NCBI GenBank assembly: GCA_903828455.1
Contig: CAIKMJ010000027.1
Span: forward strand, 62,001 to 126,000
Reading direction: 5' to 3'
Source of the DNA: an uncultured Acidobacteriia bacterium
GTDB taxonomy: Bacteria; Acidobacteriota; Terriglobia; Bryobacterales; Bryobacteraceae
DNA: 64,000 bases
A program made the translations under genes and the position numbers. The notes under the pieces were generated by a model. The model was not told the DNA's origin. It ran no database searches and saw only the letters and a list, made by a program, of their open reading frames with translations. Positions 2,448 through 56,546 of this stretch are shown here, piece after piece (the first letter of the stretch is position 1; each line of letters opens with the position of its first letter).

Positions 2448-2507
2448 TAACGGGTGCAGGTCTAACGGGCACGGAGCTAACGGGCACGGAGCTAACGGGC
2501 ACAAAGC
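2448..2507. repeat. 15-bp tandem repeat, four units, at a convergent gene junction
   Basis: Four consecutive 15-bp units (consensus TAACGGGCACGGAGC) run from 4 bp after the GT87 stop to the stop codon of the opposing decarboxylase gene. Units 2 and 3 are identical and units 1 and 4 are diverged. Each unit carries TAA, so the array contributes stop codons in one forward frame. Confidence 0.85.
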
Positions 2508-3931
2508 TAGCCGGCGTGGGCGGCGCAGCGGAGGATGGCCGCGGCCGAGGCGTCGATATCGGCTTCCGTGGTGGACCAGTTCGAGACGGAGATGCGCATG
2601 GCGTGCATGCCGTGCCAGTCGGTGGCGCTGAGCCAGCAGGTGCCGTCCTGCTGGACGCGGCGGATGACGGCGGCGGTATTGGCATCGGTAGTGGCATCGG
2701 TGTCGGCGGCGGGGTGGAAGCGGACGAGCACCTGGTTGAGAACGACGTCGTTGAGGATTTCGACGCCGGGGCCGGCCGAGAGGCGTTCCGCCATGCGCCG
2801 GGCGAGGGCGCAGCAGCGCTCGATCATTTCGGCAACGCCGTTGCGGCCGAGGCTGCGCAGGGCGGCGTAGACGGTGAAGCCGCGGGCGCGGCGGGAGGCT
2901 TCGGGCGTCCAGTTGTGGTTGTCGCGAATTTGGTGGGGATCGGCGGCGGGGTCGGGCTGGTAGTAGGGGGCGAGGAGCGTCATGGCGTTCCAGTGGGCGG
3001 CGCGGTCGGCAACGATGGCGAGGCCGCAATCGTAGGGGACGTTGAGCCATTTGTGGCCGTCGACGGCGAGTGAGTCGGCCAGTTCGATGCCGGCGAGCAG
3101 AGGACGGAGCGAGGGCGAGGCGGCGGCCCAGAGACCGAAGGCGCCATCGACGTGCAGCCAGCCGCGGCGGGCGCGGACGGCGGCGGCGATATCGGCAAGG
3201 GGGTCGATGGCGCCGGTGTTGACGTTGCCGGCCTGGGCGCAGACGAGGACGGGGGTATCGATAGCGGCGAGGGTGGAGACGAGCGCATCGGTGCGCATGC
3301 GGCCCTGGGGGTCGGTGGGGATGCGGAGGGCGCGGTCGCGGCCGAGGCCGAGCATCTGGAGGGCGGCGAAGATGGAGACGTGGGATTCGTCGCTGGCGAC
3401 GATGGTGACGGGGGGCGCGCCGGCGAGGCCGAGGCGTTCGACGTCCCAGCCGAGCTGGCTGTAAAGCGCATGGCGGGCGGCGGCGAGACAGGTGAAGCTG
3501 GCCATGGTGCAGCCGGTGGTGAAGCCGATGCTGTGGGTGGCGGGAAGGCCGAAGATTTCAAGCAGCCAGGCGGCGGCGACGTGTTCGGCGACGGCGGCGG
3601 CGGGCGAGGAGATGGAGGAGAAGGCGTTCTGATCCCAGGCGGAGGTGAGCCAGTCGGCGGCGAGGGCGGCGGGCAGCGAGCCGCCGATGACGAAGCCGAA
3701 GAAGCGGGGGCCGGGAGAGGCGAGGAGGCCGGGGGCGATGGCGGAGGCGAGGTGTTCGATCACCTGAGCGGGATCTTCGCCGCGGGCGGGAAGGGGACCG
3801 CCGGCGCGGGCGGCCATGGCGGCGAAGCTGGCGACGCCGGCGGGCAGGGCGACGGGGCGAGTGTCGAGGCTGTTGAGGAATTCGAGCGCGAGGTCACAGG
3901 TGCGGCGCAGCAGATCCGGAGTGGCTTGCAT
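2507..3931 (-). CDS. Pyridoxal-phosphate-dependent group II decarboxylase (aromatic-L-amino-acid decarboxylase-like)
   Basis: 474 aa, the usual length for the AADC/tyrosine decarboxylase family. Family landmarks are all present: TTGCTMASF in the cofactor loop, His184 in DESHVS (ring-stacking histidine), Asp262 in LHVDGAFG (binds the pyridine nitrogen), and the Schiff-base lysine Lys294 in VDGHKWLNVPYDCG. The protein is therefore expected to be an active cytosolic PLP enzyme that decarboxylates an amino acid or acts as a related lyase. The substrate cannot be deduced. Near residues 400-418 there is a low-complexity stretch, DTDATTDANTAA, encoded by imperfect 12-bp repeats, which looks like a local expansion. 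It is transcribed alone and convergent with the GT87 gene. Confidence 0.85.
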   Translation of the reverse strand: MQATPDLLRRTCDLALEFLNSLDTRPVALPAGVASFAAMAARAGGPLPARGEDPAQVIEHLASAIAPGLLASPGPRFFGFVIGGSLPAALAADWLTSAWDQNAFSSISSPAAAVAEHVAAAWLLEIFGLPATHSIGFTTGCTMASFTCLAAARHALYSQLGWDVERLGLAGAPPVTIVASDESHVSIFAALQMLGLGRDRALRIPTDPQGRMRTDALVSTLAAIDTPVLVCAQAGNVNTGAIDPLADIAAAVRARRGWLHVDGAFGLWAAASPSLRPLLAGIELADSLAVDGHKWLNVPYDCGLAIVADRAAHWNAMTLLAPYYQPDPAADPHQIRDNHNWTPEASRRARGFTVYAALRSLGRNGVAEMIERCCALARRMAERLSAGPGVEILNDVVLNQVLVRFHPAADTDATTDANTAAVIRRVQQDGTCWLSATDWHGMHAMRISVSNWSTTEADIDASAAAILRCAAHAG

Positions 3932-37422: not shown

Positions 37423-37923
37423 TCGCCGCCGCGCCGTCTGGCCCTTCAGCGCGCCCAGCATTTCCGCCATCGTCCGGCCCGTCACCGGATCCCGCATCTC
37501 GGGCGCGAGTTCCGCCAGCGGCGCCAGCGTGAACCGCCGCTCCCGATAGCGCGGATGCGGCACTTCCAGCTCCTCCGCACGGATCACCGACGTGCCGTAC
37601 AGCAGAATGTCGATGTCGATCACCCGCGGGCCGTTCTTCACCGTCCGCTCGCGGCCCATGGCGCGTTCCACCCGCTGCATCCGCGCCAGCAGTTGCTTCG
37701 GAAACAATTCGGTTTCGAACTCGCCAACTAAATTGAGAAACCAGCCCTGATCGCGAAAGCCGACCGGCTCGGTCTCGTAGATTCCCGACGTCCGCAGCAG
37801 ACGCAGCTTCGGACTTTCCAGTTCCGCCAGCGCCCGCCGCAGTTGCGCGTCCCGGTCGCCGAGGTTGGAACCGAGCCCCAGGTACACCAGTCTTCGCGTC
37901 CCATCCACACGCCCGCTCGCCAT
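37411..37923 (-). CDS. folK: 2-amino-4-hydroxy-6-hydroxymethyldihydropteridine diphosphokinase
   Basis: 170 aa. HPPK motifs are intact: VYLGLGSNLGDRDAQL, YETEPVGFRDQGWFLNLV, the metal and ATP site GPRVIDIDILLYG and LEVPHPRYRERRFTLAPLAEL. It pyrophosphorylates hydroxymethyl-dihydropterin for folate. Its start overlaps the ruvB stop (TGATG), so it is translationally coupled behind ruvA-ruvB, an unusual partnership. folB and folP are not adjacent. Confidence 0.93.
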   Translation of the reverse strand: MASGRVDGTRRLVYLGLGSNLGDRDAQLRRALAELESPKLRLLRTSGIYETEPVGFRDQGWFLNLVGEFETELFPKQLLARMQRVERAMGRERTVKNGPRVIDIDILLYGTSVIRAEELEVPHPRYRERRFTLAPLAELAPEMRDPVTGRTMAEMLGALKGQTARRRSAE

Positions 37924-55081: not shown

Positions 55082-55696
55082 TTACTTGCCCCGCGCCAGC
55101 GCCAGAAATTCGTCCCGCGTCTCTTTATTCGTCCGGAACGCTCCCAGCATCGCGCTGGTCACCGTTCCCGAATGCTGCTTTTCCACGCCCCGCATCATCA
55201 TGCAGAAATGCTGCGCTTCCACGATCACGCCCACGCCCACCGGATCCAGCAGCTCCTGAATGCAGTGCGCCACTTCCTGCGTGAACCGCTCCTGAATCTG
55301 CAGCCGCCGCGCGAAGGCGTCGATAATCCGCGGCAGCTTACTCAGCCCGATCACCTTGTTCTTCGCCAGATACGCCACGTGTACTTTGCCGAAAAACGGC
55401 AGCATATGGTGCTCGCACATGCTGAAGAACTCAATGTCCTTCACGATCACCATCTCGTCGTACTGCACTTCGTAAATCGCCCCGTTGACGATCGCCGGAA
55501 TATCCGCCGTATATCCGCTCGTCAGAAACCGCAGGGCCTTATCCACCCGCTCCGGCGTCCTCTGCAGACCGTCCCGCGCCGGATCCTCGCCCAGCGCTTC
55601 CAGTATGCCGCTCACCAGCGGCGCAACTGACTTATCCACCCGCCGCGAACCCGGCTGCCGGTCGATCACCTTCACCACTGCCCGTTTCTTATTCAT
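55082..55696 (-). CDS. folE: GTP cyclohydrolase I
   Basis: 204 aa. FolE type IA motifs are intact: [14 protein letters not shown], the zinc site [39 protein letters not shown] and the second zinc Cys in [10 protein letters not shown], then TSAMLGAFR. It converts GTP to dihydroneopterin triphosphate for folate and other pterins. It lies 29 bp downstream of two PTPS-family genes on the same strand, so the three probably form a pterin operon. The paralogs would act on its product. Confidence 0.94.
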
Positions 55697-55725: not shown

Positions 55726-56142
55726 CTAAACCGATAATTCACAGATGTTCCGGTCCGTCTCCCGGATGCGAATCTTTTCCAGCCGCGCGCCAATCTCTTC
55801 CGTCCAGCCCGCCCGCACGCGCCGTTCCACTTCCACCGTCAAATTCTCCGTCGTCGGCACTTCCGTGCGAAACGCCGCCACTTCTTCATTCAGATTCCGA
55901 TGATGAAACGGCTCCAGAATCACCCGCCGCGCCAGTGCGTCCAGCGCCTCCAGATTCGCCGCCCGCCCCGTCACCGCATCCACCACCCCGGCCACCGTCA
56001 GTTCCACCTCGTAATTGTGCCCGTGCCCGTGCGGGTTATCGCACTTCCCGTACGTGCGCCGGTTCTCCTCGTCCGAAAGCGCCGGCGAGTGCAGCCGGTG
56101 CGACGCCGCAAACCCGTACTTCCGCGTCAGCCGTACCGTCAC
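55726..56142 (-). CDS. 6-pyruvoyl-tetrahydropterin synthase/QueD family protein A (has Cys, lacks catalytic Asp)
   Basis: 138 aa from the GTG at 56142, which overlaps the previous gene stop as GTGA. It matches mammalian PTPS closely in the first half: [20 protein letters not shown] then [14 protein letters not shown], with zinc ligands His15, His40 and His42 and the catalytic Cys34. In the second half the expected Asp-His dyad (LDHKNL in animal PTPS) reads FHHRNL, so the Asp is replaced by His80. PTTENL and the pterin anchor RETDRN are kept. Family role: dihydroneopterin triphosphate to 6-pyruvoyl- or 6-carboxy-tetrahydropterin. Activity alone is uncertain. Confidence 0.85.
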
Positions 56143-56546
56143 TTCTCCCCCCGGTACTCCACGCAAAGCTCATTCGTCTCATGCACACGCACCGAATAAA
56201 GCCGCGCCCCGGGAATATGGCCCTCAATCCGGTTCCAGATATCGATCGCGATATTTTCCACCGTCGGTACCACCTTGTCGAACGGCGTCACTTCGCGGTT
56301 CAGCAGCCGGTGGTCGTAAACATCCATCACCCGCTCTTCCAGAATGTCCTTCAGCTGTTTCAGGTCGAGGATCATCCCCGTCACCCGGTCCGGCTCCCCT
56401 TCAATCGCCACCTCCACCACATAGTTGTGCCCGTGGCCCAGCGGATTCGCCGCCGCCCCGTAAACTCGTTCGTTCTCTGCGTCCGACAGTTGCGCCGACC
56501 GGCAGATGTGCGAGGCCGCGAATTCAATCTTTTTCGAAATCAGCAT
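56139..56546 (-). CDS. 6-pyruvoyl-tetrahydropterin synthase/QueD family protein B (has Asp-His, lacks catalytic Cys)
   Basis: 135 aa from the ATG at 56546 (MLISKKIEF). Zinc ligands His13, His38 and His40 are present in FAASHICRS and PLGHGHNYVVEV. The block that should hold the catalytic Cys reads YGAAANP, with Ala32 where the partner has Cys34. The Asp-His dyad is intact (VYDHRLL, Asp78-His79), as are PTVENI and the ETNE anchor. It is the reverse of its downstream neighbour. A Cys at position 15 is unlikely to substitute by alignment. It heads the pterin operon with protein A and folE. Confidence 0.85.
   Translation of the reverse strand: MLISKKIEFAASHICRSAQLSDAENERVYGAAANPLGHGHNYVVEVAIEGEPDRVTGMILDLKQLKDILEERVMDVYDHRLLNREVTPFDKVVPTVENIAIDIWNRIEGHIPGARLYSVRVHETNELCVEYRGEK

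Follow-up and report, generated by a model that had tools for sequence, protein, structure and literature searches.

The stretch of DNA analyzed here (hereafter the window) comprises 64,000 nucleotides from an uncultured Acidobacteriia bacterium of the family Bryobacteraceae (GenBank assembly GCA_903828455.1, contig CAIKMJ010000027.1, positions 62,001 to 126,000 of the forward strand). Its minus strand carries two adjacent genes for proteins of the 6-pyruvoyl-tetrahydropterin synthase (PTPS) family, which we term B and A, followed by folE, and each of the two proteins lacks a different part of the PTPS catalytic triad. PTPS is a textbook zinc enzyme that is thought to be a homo-hexamer. The relevant features, with catalytic positions assigned by alignment to rat PTPS, are as follows.

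56139..56546, minus strand: gene B, PTPS family (PF01242), 135 amino acids; zinc triad and Asp-His dyad kept, catalytic Cys replaced by Ala
56502..56504, minus strand: Cys15 of B, a new Cys at rat position 25, two residues past the zinc ligand His13
56451..56453, minus strand: Ala32 of B, at the position of the catalytic Cys42 of rat PTPS
56310..56315, minus strand: Asp78-His79 of B, matching Asp88-His89 of rat PTPS; dyad kept
56139..56142, minus strand: GTGA overlap of 4 bp between the stop codon of B and the start codon of A; translational coupling
55726..56142, minus strand: gene A, PTPS family, 138 amino acids, start codon GTG; retains the zinc triad and the catalytic Cys, with His for the dyad Asp
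56041..56043, minus strand: Cys34 of A, matching Cys42 of rat PTPS; catalytic Cys kept
55900..55905, minus strand: His80-His81 of A, where rat PTPS has Asp88-His89
55082..55696, minus strand: folE, GTP cyclohydrolase I, third gene of the unit (TIGR00063, 245.5 bits; cut-off 181.6)

The order on the minus strand is thus B, A, folE, with a gap of 29 bp between A and folE. Four-base overlaps of the NTGA type that include a start codon occur in 101 of 148 homologous B-A pairs, and folE adjoins B-A in nearly all Terriglobia loci, the window included.

Both proteins match PF01242 and no other profile (84.8 bits for A and 114.6 bits for B; cut-off 22.4), and rat PTPS is the best solved relative of each (A, E = 6e-32; B, E = 1e-32), with human PTPS also among the closest solved structures. 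An AlphaFold model of B, computed from an alignment of 30 sequences, has a pLDDT (predicted local distance difference test) score of 95.8 and a template modeling (TM) score of 0.95 to human PTPS (3i2b). With the QueD equivalog TIGR03367, the two proteins score 47.7 bits (A) and 65.7 bits (B), both under the cut-off of 89.25. The zinc ligands His23, His48 and His50 and the residue Glu133 (rat numbering) are present in A and in B, and the three zinc-binding His residues are invariant across all homologues of A and all homologues of B that are readable there. These results bear out the initial annotation in its description of two zinc-binding PTPS folds with three His ligands each, of genes that overlap by 4 bp directly upstream of folE, and of a protein B that keeps Asp-His and has Ala for Cys. 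Its statement that A keeps the Cys and has His-His for Asp-His also holds, with the refinement that only the Asp of the dyad is lost. Of the residues that mark a canonical mammalian-type (PTPS-II) chain, Cys42 is found in A and not in B, and Asp88-His89 is found in B and not in A. Because B lacks Cys42 and A lacks Asp88-His89, neither protein alone is a canonical PTPS-II. Nor does B of the window show the mark of PTPS-III, which is a Glu in place of the catalytic Cys, since the residue is Ala.

We then examined residue conservation in homologous operons, a check that had been proposed with the initial annotation, using 148 distinct adjacent pairs from Terriglobia, 146 of them complete. The roles of A and B were set by gene order, and the catalytic columns were read against rat PTPS. 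Of 299 genomes of the class, protein searches recover the pair in 257, nearly always with exactly two matches, and a majority of 237 genomes of the family have it too. Full reciprocal loss, in which B lacks the Cys and A has lost the dyad, is found in 59 of the 146 complete pairs; in a further 47, B lacks the Cys and A is complete, in 8 the dyad of A is lost and B is complete, and in 32 both partners are complete. Loss in the wrong direction (A without Cys or B without Asp-His) occurs in none of the 146. The retained halves are invariant, with the Cys present in 148 of 148 A proteins and the sequence DH in 148 of 148 B proteins. Chance or sequencing error, considered as a source of the pattern, was ruled out by its conservation over the 146 complete pairs.

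The residues that replace the lost ones are diverse. At the Cys position, 147 B homologues have Ala (61), Cys (40), Glu (23), Gly (7), Ser (7), Asp (5) or Asn (4). At the dyad, A homologues have DH (80), RY (14), DR (7), EH (7), RH (6), DQ (5), GH (5), HH (3) and many combinations seen once. Because the replacements are so varied, they are read from the sequences as decay of unused positions under relaxed constraint and not as a new motif. Dyad loss in A is more common when B is Cys-less, being found in 59 of 106 such pairs and in 8 of the 40 in which B has its Cys (p = 1.5e-4, Fisher test), an association that is inflated by shared ancestry because the Cys of B was lost only about twice. Beyond the catalytic columns, Y17, R24, K41 and W121 (rat numbering) are conserved only in A, and D71-L72-K73, R90 and W114 only in B, while T106 and N137 are kept in A and differ between A and B in the same sense.

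A tree built without the three catalytic columns resolves two clades, one holding all A proteins (support 96) and the other all B proteins (support 75). On this tree, at least 29 changes in the state of the dyad fall in A and none in B, and the Cys is constant throughout A. Protein A evolves faster, accounting for 63% of the total tree length; after allowing for its longer branches, the binomial probability that 29 of 29 dyad changes fall in A is 2e-6. When all first-gene and first-domain sequences were constrained to one clade, the likelihood was better than that of the free search (p = 0.87 in the approximately unbiased test), a result that is compatible with a single ancient duplication behind both the pairs and the fused proteins described below.

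We consider it probable that B and A are two subunits of one PTPS-type hetero-oligomer with the catalytic triad divided between them; the assembly would probably be an A3B3 hexamer, with the two proteins in a 3:3 ratio. Each working active site would lie between subunits, where A would provide the zinc center and the Cys that deprotonates dihydroneopterin triphosphate, and the Asp-His relay would come from the neighboring B. Since A and B cannot alternate around a ring of three, the triad is predicted to bridge the interface at which an A3 trimer meets a B3 trimer; were it located inside a trimer, a mixed trimer could have no more than one complete site. The mirror-image sites, made from the zinc side of B and the relay side of A, would be idle or otherwise engaged. 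If such a site is expendable, the Cys of B and the dyad of A would be under no constraint and could be lost. The pair would go back to an ancient tandem duplication, after which many lineages would have split the site in the same direction. Given the intersubunit triad of mammalian PTPS, a mixed oligomer of this kind predicts that losses run in the observed direction, that replacements vary, that the retained halves stay constant, that fusions exist, and that some Cys-less copies have lost zinc ligands.

Fused and unlinked forms are found in other lineages. Among other classes of Acidobacteriota, five genomes of family f27 and one of family f20 (loci L189-L193 and L220) encode a single two-domain PTPS polypeptide in which domain 1 has Arg, His or Lys for the Cys and keeps DH, and domain 2 keeps the Cys and has a degraded dyad (QG, SG or DC). 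Fused B-A proteins of Poribacteria (L273, L275, L300 and L307) are likewise reciprocal, with Ala at the Cys position and DH in the first domain, then Cys and DY in the second. The locus contains folE in all f27/f20 and Poribacteria fusions. Another Acidobacteriota locus, L217, holds an adjacent reciprocal pair. In five Acidobacteriota genomes with unlinked copies (G519, G558, G627, G641 and G716), the Cys-less copy has Tyr for a zinc-binding His, has lost Glu133 and keeps DH, and the other copy keeps the Cys and has DR, DC or ER at the dyad. Both partners are complete in the f30 pairs and in the adjacent pairs of Planctomycetia (L305) and Armatimonadota (L296). Every locus with a recognizable pair has the Cys in at least one partner and the dyad in at least one. 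Two further loci or groups of loci are of note for their architecture: L194 of Acidobacteriota (2489-3781, minus strand) has a 431-codon frame with three PTPS domains, two of them with Asp-His and no Cys and the third with Cys and the dyad His lost, and the fused two-domain PTPS proteins of Bacillota L267, L292 and L301, with Asp-Gly for Asp-His in domain 1, are named by annotation models only as PTPS/QueD family proteins.

The existence of B-A gene fusions in other lineages suggests that A and B may associate physically. One alternative is that only one subunit is active and the other is a pseudoenzyme with a purely stabilizing or regulatory role in the hexamer; the reciprocal pattern would then reflect two independent relaxations. 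It draws on the 47 pairs with a complete A and on fusions in Bacilli (Paenibacillus, Bacillus xiamenensis and Metabacillus) and in some Armatimonadota and Eiseniibacteriota, in which domain 1 lacks the dyad His or both halves of the site and domain 2 is complete; here a degenerate B-type domain is joined to an intact A-type domain. However, neither partner is complete in the 59 reciprocal pairs or in the Poribacteria and f27/f20 fusions, and the invariance of both retained halves is more than a pure scaffold would call for. We regard a pseudoenzyme partner as quite improbable. The obligate hetero-oligomer with a shared site, which the initial annotation had offered as one of two explanations, has gained strong comparative support from the one-directional loss in 146 pairs, its recurrence, the fusions and the intersubunit prototype; the assembly itself is a prediction from these sequences.

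The second explanation offered at that time was that A and B are two subfunctionalized enzymes that make different pterins. As formulated here, B would be a homo-hexamer that uses Cys25 with its own Asp-His, and A would be a homo-hexamer with a Cys and no relay that makes a different pterin. A Cys at rat position 25, two residues after the zinc ligand His23, is present in 105 of 107 B proteins that lack Cys42 (the other two, from L116 and L153, have Leu), whereas the position is Tyr in all 39 readable B proteins that contain Cys42 and Cys in none of them. The zinc ligands and Glu133 of B are also kept. Cys25 could serve as a base in a new location or as a fourth ligand of the zinc. The initial annotation had named homologues of B with a Cys elsewhere in the pocket as evidence that would speak against its reading, and the finding goes halfway in that direction, as Cys25 is conserved where Cys42 has been lost. 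Nevertheless, the switch to Cys25 is essentially one phylogenetic event, and the other reciprocal lineages divide the triad without having Cys25, so it is not needed for the division. In addition, the dyad of A is replaced by many unrelated residues, unlike what a new function would produce, A and B are nearly always found together and are translationally coupled, and fusions with the same split exist. The varied replacements weaken the case for two separate enzymes and Cys25 keeps it alive, and on balance we judge it unlikely. A related arrangement, which we hold to be rather unlikely, is a hexamer with two different sites, one canonical (zinc and Cys42 of A with Asp-His of B) and one formed by the zinc of B and Cys25, that would carry out two steps or make two pterins.

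The product of the pair is likely to be 6-pyruvoyl-tetrahydropterin, made early in a biopterin-type route with folE as its supplier, as suggested by the folE adjacency and the mammalian-type motifs. Short-chain dehydrogenase/reductase (SDR) genes adjoin the PTPS and folE genes in Poribacteria, Bacilli, Armatimonadota, Acidobacteriota families f27 and f30, and a gammaproteobacterium. NCBIfam models identify these only as generic SDR proteins, with none reaching the cut-off of the sepiapterin reductase equivalog, and their position would fit a sepiapterin reductase partner in a biopterin-type route.

Folate and queuosine synthesis have other candidates, because the window's genome also contains 6-hydroxymethyl-dihydropterin pyrophosphokinase (HPPK), a separate QueD and a second folE. 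The gene for HPPK, folK, lies in the window at 37500-37884 on the minus strand, away from folE. The second folE (C4:15945-16481; L310, L311) is 64% identical to the operon copy and has as neighbors a DinB-family gene, an SRPBCC (polyketide cyclase-like) protein and a DUF2867 NAD-binding protein. The separate QueD (C78:5010-5372; L001, L312) scores 108.2 bits with TIGR03367, above the cut-off of 89.25. It has the Cys-Glu motif CENLHGH in a genome where FolB was not found, and it could be a bifunctional substitute for QueD and FolB. QueD copies without the Glu occur in the folB-positive L147 and L148, but also in L145 and L150, where no FolB was found. Within the class, FolB was identified in 46 of 298 genomes, concentrated in families f4 and f8 (which are without the B-A pair), f2 and some genera of f1.

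These observations bear on the proposal that the pair replaces FolB in a PTPS-III-like manner and supplies 6-hydroxymethyl-dihydropterin for folate, which is disfavored and which we consider highly improbable. FolB was not found in the window's genome or in most of the class even though HPPK is present, and some B proteins have Glu at the Cys position. However, all eight sampled f2 genomes, whose B proteins have the Glu, contain FolB, so the Glu does not track the absence of FolB, and most Cys-less B proteins have Ala. The gap can also be filled by the separate QueD-like PTPS, whose CENLHGH motif we take to match that of bifunctional PTPS-I/III proteins.

In mammalian PTPS, the Cys and the Asp-His dyad come from different chains. 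The title of a 1995 study of the rat enzyme (Burgisser 1995) describes a zinc site whose catalytic triad is intersubunit. Several points weigh against a divided triad in an A-B hetero-oligomer, beginning with the fact that its intersubunit basis is taken from this title. In the window itself, A has lost only the Asp of the dyad and the His is still there. The pocket of B in the window's lineage, with its zinc-binding His residues, Glu133 and Cys25 all in place, may retain an action of its own. The 47 pairs with a complete A and the 8 with a complete B do not require each other, and the direction of decay is not universal, as is evident from the Bacilli, Armatimonadota and Eiseniibacteriota fusions. 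For the route, the operon in the window has no SDR gene. Of 298 genomes of the class, 69 encode an aromatic amino acid hydroxylase, and the pair is present in nearly all of these, but no hydroxylase was found in the window's genome, and for this reason the link to the hydroxylase is not decisive.

If A and B do form a mixed oligomer, they would represent a repeated natural experiment in which, after duplication, an enzyme with active sites at homomeric interfaces becomes an obligate heteromer whose subunits share one divided triad, with all stages visible (both partners intact, one half lost, both lost, and fused). It would also explain why many bacterial proteins annotated as 6-pyruvoyl/6-carboxytetrahydropterin synthases look inactive when they are judged chain by chain. 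No report of a heteromeric or fused PTPS, or of a divided PTPS site, was found in the literature searched, whose coverage left out most subscription journals.

Among known systems, mammalian PTPS-II (rat 1b66 and 1gtq, human 3i2b) is similar in its fold, zinc triad, pterin-anchoring Glu and reliance on folE as supplier, and its GKCNNPxGHGHNY block is matched in A and its DH(R/K) block in B. It differs in being a homo-hexamer whose chains each have both Cys and Asp-His, whereas here these are split over two genes or fused domains. QueD, or PTPS-I (Escherichia coli 4ntk), shares the superfamily and the zinc site, but A and B fall under the threshold of its equivalog model. The PTPS-III of Plasmodium is a homo-oligomer with a functional Glu in place of the Cys (PMC2229834). 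It resembles the present case in the change at the Cys position, but here the replacement is mostly Ala (also Glu, Gly, Ser, Asp and Asn) and a partner keeps the Cys. A parallel outside the family is the trypanosomatid deoxyhypusine synthase and its paralogue, complementary subunits that share interface sites, in which duplication was likewise followed by the division of those sites between paralogues.
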